A stretch of 38,875 nucleotides of DNA from Selenomonadaceae bacterium (GTDB lineage: Bacteria; Bacillota; Negativicutes; Selenomonadales; Selenomonadaceae), in NCBI GenBank assembly GCA_017444245.1, contig JAFSXD010000064.1, forward strand, positions 1 through 38,875, written 5' to 3'. A model generated the notes under the pieces. It saw only the letters and a list, made by a program, of their open reading frames with translations, ran no database searches and was not told where the DNA came from. The position numbers and the translations under genes are program-made. Numbering within the stretch: the stretch's first letter is position 1; each line of letters begins with the position of its first letter. Positions 5,623 through 37,028 of the stretch are shown one piece after another.

Positions 5623-6609
5623 TTGAGAATTGCAGTAGACGCTATGGGCGGCGACAATGCCCCCGAAGAAATTGTAAAAGGTGTGCTTGAGGCGTCAGAA
5701 AAATTTCCTTGCGAAATTATTTTGGTCGGCGACTCAAATAAAATCAAAAATATCTTAGAGCGTGAAGGCAAAAATAATTTTCGGATTGAAATAAGACATG
5801 CCGAAGAAATTATTTCCATGCGCGATCATCCCGCCGATGCCGTCAGAAGTAAAAAAAATTCTTCAATCGTGGTTGCTACGGAAATGGTAAAAAGTGGCGA
5901 ATGTGACGCAGTGCTTTCTGCCGGGTCGACAGGTGCCGCCGTTGCCGCCGCGCAGTTAATTTTGAAAAGGATTCATGGCGTCGGTCGTCCTGCCATTGCC
6001 ACGCCGATACCTACTCCCAACGGCGTCACGTTGCTTTTGGATTCCGGCGCGAATGTGGACAGCAAACCGGAACATTTAGTTCAAGTCGCAATGATGGGCG
6101 CGTTTTATGCCGAGCATGTTCTTGGCAAAAAAAATCCCAAAGTCGGGTTGCTGAACATCGGAGAAGAAGAGACGAAGGGCAATGAGCAAGTCAAAGAAAC
6201 TTACCAACTTTTGAAAGACGCGCCGAACATAAATTTTACCGGCAATGCCGAAGGGCGCGATATTCCCGAAGGAAAATTCGACGTTGTAGTTTGTGACGGC
6301 TTTGTTGGCAACGTCGTTTTGAAATTTGGCGAAGGACTTGCGCTCACGATTTTTAAACTGATTAAGGAAGAAATTGCGGCGGGCGGTGTCAGTGCAAAAG
6401 TTGGCGCGCTGTTGTTGACGCCCACGCTAAAAAATCTTGCTAAGCGGCTGGACGTTTCGGAATACGGCGGCGCACCACTTCTCGGCGTCAACGGCTACTG
6501 TATCATAAGTCATGGCAGCTCCGACGCAAAATCTATTTGCAGTGCTATTGGTATCGCCCAAGATTATGTTCACAGCAACATTTTGGAGCGAATCAATACG
6601 GCGATTTAG
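5623..6609 (+). CDS. plsX: phosphate acyltransferase PlsX
   Basis: Peripheral membrane enzyme making acyl-phosphate from acyl-ACP, the donor for PlsY in phospholipid synthesis. Seen: VDAMGGDNAP at the N-terminus, RDHPADAVRSKKNSS, LSAGSTGA, LLDSGANVD, NIGEEETKGN, CDGFVGNVVLK and YGGAPLLGVNG, all conserved in PlsX. TTG 5623 gives 328 aa and is preceded by AGGAG (5610-5614) at 8 nt; GTG 5572 is open but would add an atypical 17-residue extension. The TAG stop begins a heptamer array. In related genomes fabH usually follows; here it does not. Confidence 0.95.
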   Translation: MRIAVDAMGGDNAPEEIVKGVLEASEKFPCEIILVGDSNKIKNILEREGKNNFRIEIRHAEEIISMRDHPADAVRSKKNSSIVVATEMVKSGECDAVLSAGSTGAAVAAAQLILKRIHGVGRPAIATPIPTPNGVTLLLDSGANVDSKPEHLVQVAMMGAFYAEHVLGKKNPKVGLLNIGEEETKGNEQVKETYQLLKDAPNINFTGNAEGRDIPEGKFDVVVCDGFVGNVVLKFGEGLALTIFKLIKEEIAAGGVSAKVGALLLTPTLKNLAKRLDVSEYGGAPLLGVNGYCIISHGSSDAKSICSAIGIAQDYVHSNILERINTAI

Positions 6610-6641
6610 TGAGTAGTAAGTAGGGAGTAGGGAGTAGAAAA
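6607..6641 (+). repeat. heptamer array starting at the plsX stop codon
   Basis: Units are TAGTGAG, TAGTAAG, TAGGGAG, TAGGGAG, TAGAAAA. The first TAG is the plsX stop. Confidence 0.85.
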
Positions 6642-6657
6642 TTTTTTTGAAAACTAA

Positions 6658-6697
6658 CCATCGATCTATCGATCCATCGATCCATCGATCTAAATGA
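6658..6697 (-). repeat. octamer array in reverse orientation
   Basis: On the + strand: CCATCGAT, CTATCGAT, CCATCGAT, CCATCGAT, CTAAATGA. This is the reverse complement of the TAGATCGA/TGGATCGA arrays at 4306 and 19056. It ends just before the fabK SD. Confidence 0.85.
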
Positions 6698-7672: not shown

Positions 7673-9556
7673 TTGGCAACAGCGGTTGAAACGATTAAAA
7701 CTTTGATGAGCACGTTGAAAAAATATTCAACGGACGAAAGCTATGTTGGAGTTATCGCGCTTGACGATGCAATTCGTACTGCGACAACTTTCACGGACAC
7801 CAACGACGCTATTGACAAATTGACAAAGGCTTTGGGCGACACTGAAACTTACCCCGATACGAATACGCGCTTGCAGAAAGCTACGGGCATGGTTATCGGC
7901 GCGGAAAAAGATTACACGGTAGACACGGGCGCAATTTCGGGCGCGAATGCTGGCGGCAGTGTCGTGAAAAATGCTCAGGATATTGTTCCGGAGAATGGCG
8001 ACTTGTCAACGGCGACTTTGCCAGAGGTGGGCTCAACAGTCCCGATAACCTACACGGGCAACGACGGAAAATCTTTCACCTTCTACGTGAAATATCCCGA
8101 CAGCTTTTCAACCGTAGTTCAAGGATTCGACGAAAAAGACAGAACGAACGGGGAATTAAAAATTATCGATAGCCGCTACTACGTCGACTTGAACACCCTT
8201 GACGAAAATTATTCTCACGAGCGGACTTCCACCAACGAAGACGGCACGACTAAGGTAGTTGCCTCGCCAACCGTCGCGCAAATGAAAGAATCCATTCAGA
8301 CGATTTTGAAGGGGCTGAATACGTACTGGCTGCGTGAAGGCGCGAAACTTGATTATGATTCGCTTGGCTTTGCACTTGACGGGCAGACGATTGAAATTAA
8401 ATTTATCGCGGGCGGAGACACGTTCGACGGATCGGCGGCGATCACTTTTTCGCACAGGAACGATTATCAGCCGTCCAACCACATCATACTGGCAATAGAC
8501 CTTTTCAACTACGGCAACATCAGCCCAACAGACCCTAACGGAAGTACGGAGAACAACGGCGGCGAAGCAAGCATTTATCTGGATCGCGTCCTTGCCCATG
8601 AAATGGTTCATGCGGTTATGCAGTCCAACGGAACTTTGAAAAATGGAATGCCGCAATTTTTCACTGAAGGCGTTGCGGATTTGGTGCAGGGCGACGACGA
8701 TTATAATTCTGAGCAGCGCAAATTTATGATAGAACTTGCGAACAATACGGACACGCTTCAGGAAAGTCTGTCAATGTTGCCGGGAACGGGTTCATCGTAC
8801 GCCTATCCTGCGGGCAACATGCTTTTGCGTTTCATTGCTCAACACAGCCTTGACACTACGGCGATGATTGGCGATTCCGCACAACAACAAACCTTCAGCT
8901 ATTCGACTGGTAGCGGTGTCGTCACTGGCTACAAGGAAGGCGACTTTATCAACTACAATTTGACGGATGGCGCGGCGTTGAGATACGTCGGGGCAACGGC
9001 GATGGGCGATTTTGTTTTCACGGAGTTCACGCAGAATTTTGAGAAGGAAAATACTTTCGTGATCCGTGACGTCCGCGACAAACTTGTAACGCTCAACACT
9101 TCCTACGGCACGGAGTACGCTTACTTGTCCTCAAGCGCGGGAAAAATTGACGGTAGGAATTTCAACAACGGGGAAAACTATCAAGTAATCGTTGGCGCAA
9201 ATTATCTGAACAATTCACTTCACGCGGGCAACAACGGTTCGCAACTTTGGGGCGGATATCGCGGCAATGATGAACTTTTCGGCGGCGCGGGCGAGGACAC
9301 TTTCATGTACGATTTTGACGGCGGCAATGACAAAATCTTCAACGCGGAAAGTCAAGACAAAGTGATTATCTTTGATACTTCGTTGGATCAAATTTCTGCC
9401 GCGCAGATTACGGACGAAGGGTCTTACTTGGTATTTACGGACGGCATGTCTTTAAGTATCTCTGGCAAGCCTGAAACTTTCATTCTTGAAAATGACGAGA
9501 CTTATACGTATTACGCTGCAAATTACGAGACAAAATCTTGGACGCCGCAGAATTAA
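7673..9556 (+). CDS. putative secreted zinc metallopeptidase with RTX-like C-terminus (paralogue 1)
   Basis: A 627-aa protein I do not recognise by name. Seen: no signal peptide; an N-terminal region (1-100, VGVIALDDA, YPDTNTRL) shared with the next gene; a hinge GAISGANAGGS; a middle domain with H309-E310-x-x-H313 (AHEMVHAVM) and E332 (FFTEGVADL), the HExxH...E pattern of gluzincin (peptidase MA-like) enzymes; and an Asp/Gly-rich C-terminus (GYRGNDELFGGAGEDTF, DFDGGNDKI) like RTX calcium-binding repeats. Together these suggest export by a type I system and extracellular proteolysis, but no transporter is in the window. TTG 7673 follows GGGGGA and lies 14 bp after fabK. Substrate unknown. A surface or adhesin protein with an inactive peptidase fold is the main alternative. 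Confidence 0.65.
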   Translation: MATAVETIKTLMSTLKKYSTDESYVGVIALDDAIRTATTFTDTNDAIDKLTKALGDTETYPDTNTRLQKATGMVIGAEKDYTVDTGAISGANAGGSVVKNAQDIVPENGDLSTATLPEVGSTVPITYTGNDGKSFTFYVKYPDSFSTVVQGFDEKDRTNGELKIIDSRYYVDLNTLDENYSHERTSTNEDGTTKVVASPTVAQMKESIQTILKGLNTYWLREGAKLDYDSLGFALDGQTIEIKFIAGGDTFDGSAAITFSHRNDYQPSNHIILAIDLFNYGNISPTDPNGSTENNGGEASIYLDRVLAHEMVHAVMQSNGTLKNGMPQFFTEGVADLVQGDDDYNSEQRKFMIELANNTDTLQESLSMLPGTGSSYAYPAGNMLLRFIAQHSLDTTAMIGDSAQQQTFSYSTGSGVVTGYKEGDFINYNLTDGAALRYVGATAMGDFVFTEFTQNFEKENTFVIRDVRDKLVTLNTSYGTEYAYLSSSAGKIDGRNFNNGENYQVIVGANYLNNSLHAGNNGSQLWGGYRGNDELFGGAGEDTFMYDFDGGNDKIFNAESQDKVIIFDTSLDQISAAQITDEGSYLVFTDGMSLSISGKPETFILENDETYTYYAANYETKSWTPQN

Positions 9557-9628: not shown

Positions 9629-11446
9629 TTGGCAACTGCTATTGAAACTGTAAAAAATTTTGTTAGCGTCTTGAAGGATTACGCGCAGGACCCTTCCAAC
9701 GTTGGACGAATCGCGCTTGACGACGCCACCAGAAAGACGACAATTTTTCCAAGTTTTGCGGACGCGGTAAAAGAACTCGAAAGAAAATTGCTTGACACCA
9801 CAACTTACCCCGACACCGATACGCGCTTGCTGAACGCTACGGGCATGGTTCTCGGATCGGAAGACACGGGCGCAATTTCGGGCGCGAATGCTGGCGGCTC
9901 AACCGTAAAGAATGCTGAGGACATTGTTCCCGAAGACGGCGACTTAACCACTGCAACTTTGCCAACGCCTGGTTCAACGACGCAAATCACTTACACGGGC
10001 GAAGACGGCAAAACTTTTTCCTTCAATGTGAAATGGCCAGACAGTTTTACCGCGCTCATCGACAGCAAAGATTTTGTTTTGGGAGTTCCCGACGAATACG
10101 AAAACTATTTAAACCTTTTTTTTGATTCAAACAATCTCCTTGAGTTCGACGATTTGAACACGAGCGACGAAGGAAAACAATTACTCAAAAACGCGGCGGA
10201 AACTATGTTGAAGGCACTGAATACTTACTGGTTTAAAGAAAGTGCTAAACTCGTTTATGATTCTTTCGGGATTGCGCTTGACGGTAAAACAATCGAAGTT
10301 GGATTCATAGGAACGGGTCCTCTCTCGGCGGCGGGGGCAATAACGGCGCAGACTCGTGTAGACGACAAACCCGCTGACAAATCATACATCGTGGTAAACG
10401 TAGTTGGTTTTGCGGGAATAGATTCCGAAAACCCAAACGGTGCCATTCCTATGGCAGACGGCAGTTTTCTTTACTTGGATCGTACCATCGCCCATGAGAT
10501 GGTGCACGCTACAATGCATTCATTGGGACTTATGAAAAAAGACATGCCGCAATTTTTCACGGAAGGCATCGCGGAGGTAGTTGAAGGCGAAGACGATTCC
10601 TCTGCTGGGCGTACTGGAGACATTGCTACGCTCGTCAACGATTCAGATACTTTGCTTGAAAATTTAAATTTTGGCGAAGGCACGGGCTCACATTATGCGT
10701 ATCCTGTTGGCAATATGTTCATGCGTTTTCTGGCTCATCAGAATTTGAACACGACTTCGATTATCGGCGACCCCAACCGAGCGCAGACCTTTGACTACTA
10801 CGGCAACAACGAAGTCATCACAAATTATTCTGAAGCGGACACGATTAATTATCAGGCGAACTTTACTGGAGTTCAGACGCCGAAAAATGGTACAACCTCC
10901 TTTTCTTACGACGACTTGAACATTGACGCGCTTGACGGCAACCAATTAATTCTGCGCGACGTTCGCGGAAAGTTCATGACGTTGAACATGGCGGGCGCAA
11001 ATGTTTACGCTTACATGGCGGAGCACTCAACCGAAGTCAACGGAAATAATTTCAGCGGCGGCAACAATTTTGAAATACTCTTCGGTTCAAATTTCGAAAA
11101 TGACATCATCCGCGCGGGCAATGCAGGCTCGCATCTTTGGGGCGGCATTTCTGGCAACGACGAAATTTTTGGCGGCAATGGGCAGGACACGTTCATTTAC
11201 AATTTCTTGGACGGCAACGACGCAATTCACAACGCGGAAAGTCAAGACGTCGTTTCTTTGCGGAAAATTTCACTTGCAGAGATTTCTGCCGCGCAGATTA
11301 CTGACGACGGAGTTTACATGACTTTCTCGGACGGCGGCAGTTTAAATATTTCTGGCAACCCCGAAACCTTCACGATTGAAAAAAATGGTGCGACTGACAC
11401 TTACAAGGCGGATTACCAGACTAAGAGTTGGACGCAACAAAGTTAA
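9629..11446 (+). CDS. putative secreted zinc metallopeptidase with RTX-like C-terminus (paralogue 2)
   Basis: A 605-aa paralogue of the preceding protein with the same architecture: shared N-terminus (ETVKNF, VGRIALDDA, YPDTDTRLLNATGM), hinge GAISGANAGGS, H289-E290-x-x-H293 (AHEMVHATM) with E312 (FFTEGIAEV) at the same spacing as paralogue 1, and C-terminal GISGNDEIFGGNGQDTF. The C-terminal 30 residues (NPETF...DYQTKSWTQQS) are also conserved and could be a secretion signal. TTG 9629 has the same leader as paralogue 1 (GGGGGAAAATTTT, then TTGGCAAC), so the duplication included the translation start. fabD begins 12 bp after its stop. Divergence is greatest between hinge and active site. Confidence 0.65.
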   Translation: MATAIETVKNFVSVLKDYAQDPSNVGRIALDDATRKTTIFPSFADAVKELERKLLDTTTYPDTDTRLLNATGMVLGSEDTGAISGANAGGSTVKNAEDIVPEDGDLTTATLPTPGSTTQITYTGEDGKTFSFNVKWPDSFTALIDSKDFVLGVPDEYENYLNLFFDSNNLLEFDDLNTSDEGKQLLKNAAETMLKALNTYWFKESAKLVYDSFGIALDGKTIEVGFIGTGPLSAAGAITAQTRVDDKPADKSYIVVNVVGFAGIDSENPNGAIPMADGSFLYLDRTIAHEMVHATMHSLGLMKKDMPQFFTEGIAEVVEGEDDSSAGRTGDIATLVNDSDTLLENLNFGEGTGSHYAYPVGNMFMRFLAHQNLNTTSIIGDPNRAQTFDYYGNNEVITNYSEADTINYQANFTGVQTPKNGTTSFSYDDLNIDALDGNQLILRDVRGKFMTLNMAGANVYAYMAEHSTEVNGNNFSGGNNFEILFGSNFENDIIRAGNAGSHLWGGISGNDEIFGGNGQDTFIYNFLDGNDAIHNAESQDVVSLRKISLAEISAAQITDDGVYMTFSDGGSLNISGNPETFTIEKNGATDTYKADYQTKSWTQQS

Positions 11447-33382: not shown

Positions 33383-34363
33383 ATGGATAAAGTGACTGTT
33401 GTCGTGCCGTGCTACAACGAAGAAGAAGTAGTCGATATGTTTTACCCTGAAGTTCAAAAACATCTGCAAAAAATTCCTGATTGCCAATTTGAATATCTTT
33501 TCATAAATGACGGAAGCCGTGACGGTACGCTTGAAAAACTTCGCGCGCTGGCAAAAAAATATGACGCGGTGAATTATTTGAGCTTGTCACGAAATTTTGG
33601 AAAAGAATCCGCAATGATGGCGGGCATCGATTACGCGGAAGGCGACGCCGTGATTATCATGGACGCCGATTTACAACATCCGCCTGAAACTGTTGCCGAA
33701 ATGATAAAACTTTGGCGTGAAGGTTACGACGACGTTTGCGGAAAGCGCGTCGACCGCGCAGGTGAATCTTTTTTGAAACGTACCTTTACAAATTTTTTTT
33801 ACTTGCTGATGAAACAGTTCAGCACTTCGTACGAAATGCAACGTGACGTTGGCGATTTTCGGCTTTTGGACAGACGCTGTGTCGAGGCGTTGAAGTTGAT
33901 GCGCGAAAATCAGCGATTCACGAAGGGACTTTTCACTTGGGTCGGCTATCGAAAAAAAGAAATTCCGTTTGAAGTGCGCCCGCGTGCGGCAGGTACTACG
34001 ACATGGAATTTTTTTGCGCTGTTTAATTTGGCAATGAAGGGCATGACTTCATTCACGACCGCGCCGCTTAGGTTGATGACTTTTCTCGGCATGACAATTT
34101 CCTGTTTGGCAATGGCGTACATGATTTTCATTTTCGTAATGGCGTTGATTTACGGCGATCCCGTCGCGGGTTATCCGACGCTGATAACGGTGCTTCTTTT
34201 TCTCGGCGGCACACAACTTTTGGCGTTGGGAATTATCGGCGAATACATCGGACAAATTTTCTACGAAAGCAAACGACGACCGATTTACCTCGTGGACGAA
34301 ATGAACGGCACGCGCATGGTTTATGAAAGTGTTCTTCGTCCCGCCGAAAGGAATACAAAATGA
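33383..34363 (+). CDS. GT2-family glycosyltransferase, GtrB/DPM1-like
   Basis: A 326-aa membrane-anchored enzyme. The N-terminal GT-A domain shows VVVPCYNEEE, FINDGSRDGT, the MDADLQHPPE (DxD) metal site and GDFRLLDR. Two C-terminal membrane spans (about 225-250 and 258-285) and EYIGQIFYESKRRP end the protein, as in GtrB/polyprenyl-phosphate glucosyl- or mannosyltransferases. It likely loads a sugar on undecaprenyl phosphate for transfer outside. ATG 33383 (MDKVTVVVP) is the family-like start; TTG 33371 lies too near the AAAGG. The LtaS-type gene follows after 34 bp. Confidence 0.85.
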   Translation: MDKVTVVVPCYNEEEVVDMFYPEVQKHLQKIPDCQFEYLFINDGSRDGTLEKLRALAKKYDAVNYLSLSRNFGKESAMMAGIDYAEGDAVIIMDADLQHPPETVAEMIKLWREGYDDVCGKRVDRAGESFLKRTFTNFFYLLMKQFSTSYEMQRDVGDFRLLDRRCVEALKLMRENQRFTKGLFTWVGYRKKEIPFEVRPRAAGTTTWNFFALFNLAMKGMTSFTTAPLRLMTFLGMTISCLAMAYMIFIFVMALIYGDPVAGYPTLITVLLFLGGTQLLALGIIGEYIGQIFYESKRRPIYLVDEMNGTRMVYESVLRPAERNTK

Positions 34364-34397: not shown

Positions 34398-36397
34398 TTG
34401 AAATTTTTTAAGAGATTTTTTTCCGGCACACAACGCGACCTCAGAATATTTTTTTTCATACTGATACTTCTCGAAATTTACCGCGCACTTTTCATTTTTC
34501 GGATGTCGGATTACATTGGCGTCAGCACGGACAGTTCACAAATTTGGTTGGCACTTTTCGCGGGACTTCGCATAAGTTTGAAGTCCGCAGGCGTGGTTAC
34601 GCTTTTTTCTTTCGTTTTCGTCACGCTACTCGGCTTGAACTTTCGACTACGACTAGCTATCGGAATTATCGCTTCACTGATTTTTTCCATTCTGTTCATG
34701 TTGCGTTTTCCGTACTACCAAGAATTTAACGCGACTTTCGGCATGGATTTAGTCATGGGTTTGCAGGACGATGTTTGGTCAATTTTTGTGACGTTGATTC
34801 AAGGCTACGGATTAATTTGGCGAATTTTGGCGGGATTTTTTCTTACGCTCATCTGCATTTTTTTCTTGAGCAGACTTTTGTTGATAAAAACAATTCCGTT
34901 GCCGAACCTTGACACTCTTGCGAAGAAAATTATTTTTTCGTTGTGGGCAGTGATTACCGTCGTTTTGTTTTTTATTTTTGCGCGATTCGGCGGAAGTTTT
35001 ACGTACGAAAGCGGATTGAGTTGGGAGAACGCGGGAGTAACTTCAGACAGTTTTCTGAACGAGGCTATCTTGGACGATATGCAGGCACTTTACCGCGCCT
35101 ACTCAATTTCGGAGGACATGGAAGTTAGGGAAATTTCGGGGGTTGAGCCGGAAAATATTTTGGAGTTCGCAGAATTTATTTCGCAGAGAAAAAATTTGAA
35201 TGCGCAAAGTTTAGATCCGTACTTGGAACGGACGGCTGACGGTGAACGAATTGAAAAACCGAAACATATTTTCATAATCGTTGGCGAAACGTGGATGCAG
35301 TGGCCAATGCTCGGCAAGTACGCAAGTTTGCACGTTGCCGACGGAATTAAGTCAATCATCGCTGAACCGAATGCGTATTACAGCAGAAATTTTTTCTCGT
35401 CCGGCAGTTTCACTTCGATTGCCGCTTCAAGCATCGTTACGGGCATGCCCGACGTTAACATTAATATCACGTACCAGCCGTTCACTTACGAAGAAATTTA
35501 TATTCCGGCAATGGCACCGCCGCTGAAGGAATTGGGTTACCGCGTAGATTTTTGGTACGGTGGAACGCCGAGCTGGGATAACATTGCTAAGATGGCTTTG
35601 GCGCAAGGGTTTGATAATTTTTACGGCTATCCTGATTTGCACGCGCCTAAACAAACGACTTGGGGCGCGAAGGACGGCGATTTATTTAAAGCGATTGAAG
35701 AACATTTAGTTGACGAGCCGCCGACAGTTCATTTGATTTTGACGACGACGAATCATCCGCCGTACAATTTGGATTTGGAGGCGGAAGGTTTTGATTACAG
35801 CACGACGCTTGCGGAAGTTCAAAAGTTGCCGAACGTCGACGACCCGCGCGAACTTACCGTCGAGTTGGGGCATTACTGGTACATGGATCAAGTCACGACA
35901 AAATTTATTCGTTCCGTTTCGGAAAAATATCCTGACAGTCTTTTCATCGTGACGGGAGATCACGCGCACAGAGTTGATCCGAGCACGCGCCCGACAATTT
36001 TTGAGCATGAAAGCGTTCCTTTCGTGATGTACGGCGCGGGAATAAATAAAAAAATGCTAAAGTCTGATGCTGTTGGCGGGCATATTCGATTGTGCCGACG
36101 ATTATCGAATTGATTGCGCCGCGCGGATTTATTTACTACTCAATCGCGCCGAGTTTGTTTCACAGCCAAAACGCGGCACTGAATAATTTTTCTTACATAA
36201 CGCAAAACACGGCGGGAAAAATTGATTCGGATGTTTGGGAAATTTTGCCGCAAGTTGCCTCTGCCAGTTTGACGCAGATTAATTTATCGGACGAGCGAAT
36301 ACACGCAATGCAAGTTGTTCGCGCGATTCATACGGTCGGCTGGTGGCTTTTGACGAAAGGTTCAAGTATCGCGGGGGGCGGTGAAAGTGGCAATTAA
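34398..36397 (+). pseudogene. LtaS-type sulfatase/phosphoglycerol transferase, frameshifted
   Basis: The reading frame splits near 36087. The first part (TTG 34398 to TGA 36113, about 571 aa) has a basic N-terminus, about five membrane spans and an extracellular sulfatase-fold domain with metal-site residues IIVGETWM (Glu) and IVTGDHAH (Asp, His). The end of the domain continues in another frame (to 36397) as IVPTIIELIAPRGFIYYSIAPSLF, the conserved HxDxVPT-type block and tail. Joining GGHI to IVPT needs one extra base. Either a real mutation has removed the last 100 residues or one base was missed in sequencing. Intact, it would transfer phosphoglycerol or phosphoethanolamine-like groups to an envelope glycan. 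ATG 34323 is open but overlaps the glycosyltransferase gene. Confidence 0.75.
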
Positions 36398-37028
36398 AAA
36401 TTACAAAACCGTTGCCGCCGATGAAATTTTTTCCGCAGAATACGAAGTGAAAAAATCTCGTTTCATTGCCCACGTGAAAAATGTTGCAGACGAAAATTCT
36501 GCGCGGGAGTTCGTGCAATCCGTCAGAAAAAAATTTTTTGACGCAACGCATAATTGTTCGGCATGGATTTTGGGTGAGACGGGCAATTTGCAAAAATCCA
36601 ACGACGACGGCGAACCGGGCGGTACGGCGGGAAATCCGATTTTGGAAACGATTAAGAAAAATAATTTGACGAACACCGCCGTTGTCGTCACGAGATATTT
36701 CGGCGGCATAAAGTTGGGAGCGGGCGGGCTGATTCGCGCCTATTCGCACACTGCCGCGCTTGGTCTTGAGTCGTCAAAAATTATTCAGATGACTACGTTT
36801 CAAAAAATTTCCCTGACGCTGGAATATAATTTTCTTGCGCAGGTTGAAAACTTTTTGCGAAAAAAAAATATCCCCGTCGACAGTGCGGAGTACACGGAAC
36901 TGGTCACGTTGAACGTCGCGCTGTTGCCTGAAGACGTAGAAAATTTTTTGCTGGAGCTGACAGATTTAACCGCCGCAAATTTTCTTCACGAACTGAAAGA
37001 AAAAATTTTAGTTCCGATTGCGCAATAA
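36387..37028 (+). CDS. YigZ/IMPACT family protein
   Basis: A 213-aa two-domain protein. N-terminal UPF0029 domain: KKSRFIAHVKNV, ATHNCSAWILG, SNDDGEPGGTAGNPILE and VVVTRYFGGIKLGAGGLIRAYS, the family hallmark; C-terminal DUF1949 ferredoxin-like domain (about 140-213). IMPACT proteins modulate GCN2 in eukaryotes; the bacterial role is uncertain. GTG 36387 has GGGGGG at 8 nt; GTG 36381 is also possible. It overlaps the tail frame of the broken LtaS-type gene. Confidence 0.88.
   Translation: MAIKNYKTVAADEIFSAEYEVKKSRFIAHVKNVADENSAREFVQSVRKKFFDATHNCSAWILGETGNLQKSNDDGEPGGTAGNPILETIKKNNLTNTAVVVTRYFGGIKLGAGGLIRAYSHTAALGLESSKIIQMTTFQKISLTLEYNFLAQVENFLRKKNIPVDSAEYTELVTLNVALLPEDVENFLLELTDLTAANFLHELKEKILVPIAQ

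Follow-up and report, generated by a model that had tools for sequence, protein, structure and literature searches.

The window analysed here, which is the whole 38,875-nucleotide stretch of contig JAFSXD010000064.1 from a Selenomonadaceae bacterium, harbors an LtaS-like sulfatase-family gene that is read in two frames. The frame-0 part (34398–36113, +) encodes 571 aa, of which the final eight residues are aberrant, and begins with a TTG at 34398; the same start is used in the relatives, whose alignments begin at residue 1 of this frame, and the in-frame ATG at 34323 falls within the upstream gene. That upstream neighbour, an intact family-2 glycosyltransferase of the polyprenyl-phosphate glycosyltransferase type (33386–34363, +), also adjoins the LtaS-like orthologue in two close relatives. 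An intact YigZ/IMPACT family gene (36381–37028, +) lies downstream and overlaps the displaced tail of the LtaS-like gene by 17 bases.

Frame 0 closes with ...KKMLKSDAVGGHIRLCRRLSN*, in which the GGHI motif ends at 36086 and the stop codon occupies 36111–36113. The C-terminal tail (36089–36397, +), opening with IVPTIIELIAP, is read one base back, as IVPTIIELIAPRGF..., from 36089 through a stop codon whose last base is 36397, and the last sixth of the gene is read out of frame. In the relatives, single ORFs align with the two pieces over their full lengths, so the homology of these pieces is not due to chance, and the tail is 52–82% identical to those ORFs over about 90–100 residues. The strict bounds of the frame switch are 36068, set by a TGA of the displaced frame (36065–36067, +), and 36110, set by the frame-0 stop, while homology narrows the change to between 36086 and 36089. 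At this break site (36087–36088, +) all 29 relatives inspected have one base more than the window, with the shortfall sitting between the codon that ends at 36086 and the codon that starts at 36089. The original prediction had described a clean reading to GGHI at about 36086 followed by the tail in another frame to 36397, which was confirmed when the frames were re-read, and the TGA at 36065 and the A7 run (36048–36054, +) are both located where it had placed them. Its exclusion of slippage at the A7 run also holds, since the TGA in the displaced frame comes after the run, and its interval for the shift, 36068 to about 36090, agrees with our reading, with an upper bound that is homology-based and upheld by the relatives and a strict limit of 36110.

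Other features of the window were also observed. Two tandem proteins of about 600 aa (7673–9556 and 9629–11446), 48% identical to each other, each carry an HExxH-like HEMVHA and a C-terminal GGxGxDTF by direct reading and have no Pfam match; judging from these motifs, they may be secreted and metallopeptidase-like. Intergenic short repeats of the GTAGGGAGTAG type, followed by ATCGATC(C/T) repeats, occupy 6605–6645 and 6658–6692. The GTAGGGAGTAG-type repeats have many short matches of ~83–94% identity over the contigs of two related genomes (G002 and G052) and are likely a dispersed intergenic repeat, while a hairpin was rejected because the RNA fold was weaker than that of shuffled sequences.

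A match to the LtaS-like gene was detected in 132 of 149 related genomes, and none of the listed matches contains an internal stop. The 29 best loci, all from other genomes of the same genus, were inspected base by base, and every one of them passes the break point in a single frame with the same flanking residues, showing a G-[G/D]-H-x-S-[I/V/F]-type context followed by about 95–105 more residues. The nearest relatives' proteins are 79–81% identical to that of the window, and the shortened matches inspected in two genomes (G005 and G018) both end at contig ends. The original prediction had proposed a comparison with strains as a check. Its two readings of the break, a recent loss of function or a sequencing error, are supported by the 29 unbroken relatives and by the lack of further breaks wherever the window was covered. 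A second collection contributed 21 loci, for the most part from rumen-metagenome Selenomonadaceae. One of them, the LtaS-like orthologue of Veillonella agrestimuris (L063, 10001–11989), has an in-frame stop after residue 373, far upstream of the position of the window's break, and its homology continues past this stop. A second intact copy of the LtaS-like gene was sought in the same genome and was not found; another PF00884 gene, on contig C100, was rejected as such a copy, since BLASTP gave no similarity of note (best E 1.0). Matches in the plasmid search were all below 60% identity, with five listed at 21–25%, and a search of viral contigs with the window's pattern returned no match.

The frame-0 part scored 72.1 bits against Pfam Sulfatase PF00884, above the gathering cut-off of 25, and only 24.5 bits against the LtaS equivalog NCBIfam NF053595, below its cut-off of 970. 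The name "LtaS-type" given in the original prediction is therefore appropriate at the level of fold and Pfam family, while the protein should not be called LtaS itself. Selenomonadaceae possess an outer membrane and make up most of the relatives, so lipoteichoic acid is not necessarily the substrate. A literature search on Negativicutes and Selenomonas returned no papers about this enzyme. The residues E299, T341, H455, D523 and H524 are invariant in all 19 proteins aligned (19 of the 21 loci, with L062 and L063 left out), and the motifs that contain them, GETW, GSFTS, TNHPPY and TGDH, are present in the window ahead of the break; from LtaS, we take these residues to have catalytic roles as metal site and nucleophile. 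An AlphaFold2 model of the intact orthologue in locus L045 (mean pLDDT 88.8) matched the LtaS, LtaP and VP1736 structures (PDB 4uop, 2w5q, 3lxq) with Z of 33.5–35.2 over 364–376 residues, to the C-termini (model range ending at 658–660), a result that applies to the intact orthologue and not to the window's own product. As in those proteins, N-terminal helices are followed by an extracellular alkaline-phosphatase-superfamily domain, and the candidate Glu, Thr and Asp-His residues of the LtaS/LtaP family are also kept; however, identity to them is only 14–18%, and the window protein falls below the LtaS equivalog cut-off. In the L045 model, GGHM occupies residues 562–565, a helix runs from 564, strands lie within 581–618 and helices span 624–629 and 632–656. 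The frame-0 product lacks everything past the equivalent of residue 565 (95 residues), a stretch that is modelled as folded domain with one conserved helix, several strands and closing helices. It keeps all the presumed catalytic residues yet would likely misfold and lose its function, and if the break is real, the truncated enzyme is probably dead.

The dN between the window and its relatives is low for the body of the gene and the tail alike, with values for the tail of 0.106–0.192 to three relatives, the lowest being to G002. Window-branch dN ratios were calculated where a window gene has a counterpart in G023 as well as in G052; of 27 gene entries attempted, 16 were scored, and two of these are the sulfatase pieces themselves. 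The body has a ratio of 0.78 and the 94-codon tail one of 1.01, compared with 0.38–0.86 (median 0.64) in the 14 other genes. The tail exceeds this range, but over 94 codons only and with a dN of 0.106 to G002, and no conclusion on relaxed selection was drawn, because the tail is short and that dN is so small. At two residues that most of the family conserves, a P replaced by K shortly before the break and an R replaced by H in the tail, the window departs from all five relatives compared, which is weak evidence of decay. The original prediction that the remainder of the gene is well preserved is in line with the low dN, and we read a tail free of clear decay as suggesting that the break is either recent or an artefact.

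The relatives' ORFs cover 30,405 of the 38,875 bases of the window, and the LtaS-like gene is the sole frame-split gene flagged there. In five other contigs of the same genome, 50,131 of 60,313 bases were covered, with four flags and no confirmed break: at two, the gene is open in this genome and the relative's copy is shifted (L132 and L233), another comes from two overlapping genes, and the last is a 20-residue piece. About 80.5 kb of this assembly was covered in total with one break, which argues that the assembly is not generally indel-ridden. The reverse comparison covered 298,535 of 679,642 relative bases, counting overlapping loci more than once, and flagged eight places; those in long ORFs represent three distinct places (L132, L133/L185 as one place, and L233), while the four others fall in short ORFs and look like shadows. 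Isolated breaks of one gene occur at a similar rate in the sister drafts, which are metagenome-assembled. One of these affects a second, different PF00884 gene, which is intact here (L125:6123–8054) and has a frame change in relative G052 (L132, contig C126, ~2150–2160, −) at a site without a long homopolymer.

The two frames, the unbroken relatives and the single copy are direct observations, and our preferred explanation, to which we give slightly better than even odds, is a genuine recent single-base deletion in the sampled strain with loss of the enzyme. The gene product would be an LtaS-like transferase of phospho groups that belongs to the alkaline phosphatase superfamily and is anchored in the membrane. 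Compared with every relative inspected, one base would have been deleted outside homopolymer tracts, between 36086 and 36089, after which the ribosome would read on through eight aberrant residues and halt at 36111. Without the ~95 C-terminal residues of its catalytic domain, the product would then misfold and be lost as an enzyme. That the deletion is a real mutation and not an artefact is the less certain step; such a break would be young, as the tail dN is still low, and the conserved sequence past the break, with no sign of lapsed selection, counts against it.

The main competitor, which we consider plausible though somewhat short of even, is a consensus or assembly error, strain mixing included, in a draft metagenomic genome of 110 contigs and 76.7% completeness, in which case the real gene would be intact and the enzyme made normally. 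The preserved remainder of the gene, the constraint on the tail and the similar isolated breaks in the sister drafts agree with such an error, and in view of the breaks at three distinct places in close relatives it fits as well as pseudogenes do. High indel rates in unpolished nanopore assemblies are described in PMC12363240. However, the site is not in a homopolymer, the break is single in the covered sequence, and the mismatch density is unexceptional: a bad join marked by local mismatch excess was rejected, because the 15-base maximum near the site, 7–8 mismatches against the three nearest relatives, is equalled or exceeded in 65 to 256 of 1986 windows. Given the non-homopolymer site and the few breaks in the assembly, we lean slightly towards a genuine mutation over an artefact.

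It is improbable that, in rumen Selenomonadaceae and related bacteria, envelope phospho-transferases of this superfamily are repeatedly lost or varied between strains; were it so, the single breaks in the window gene, the G052 superfamily member and the Veillonella agrestimuris orthologue would suggest that variable surface decoration is selected for. A programmed ribosomal frameshift that joins both frames into a full enzyme would use a −1 shift, a step ribosomes can make, but it is extremely unlikely, since the 29 relatives encode the protein without a shift and the frame change is not conserved; no in-phase X XXY YYZ slippery heptamer is present in 36068–36088 by direct reading, and the TGA at 36065 rules out a shift at the A7 run. 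Hardly more credible is a split gene with two polypeptides: a 101-aa ORF does start from GTG 36092, but this codon falls in the interior of the domain, where the intact-orthologue model has a helix, the tail fragment alone has no Pfam or NCBIfam match and none of the 29 relatives is split. Homopolymer phase variation was rejected, as no tract longer than 2 bases is found at the break and the upstream A7 run is excluded.

Whether a recent deletion or a draft error, the event is an ordinary gene break or sequence error, with no new mechanism. Ordinary single-indel pseudogenes and draft-assembly frameshifts show the same one base, one copy, preserved gene and intact sister genes, and nothing observed distinguishes the window's gene from them. 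The finding has annotation value only: the gene at this locus should be entered as disrupted or as a probable draft error, and on present evidence the strain should not be scored negative for the LtaS-like enzyme. If the deletion is real, the strain would be a naturally occurring mutant, within an outer-membrane Firmicute lineage, that has lost the LtaS-like enzyme.
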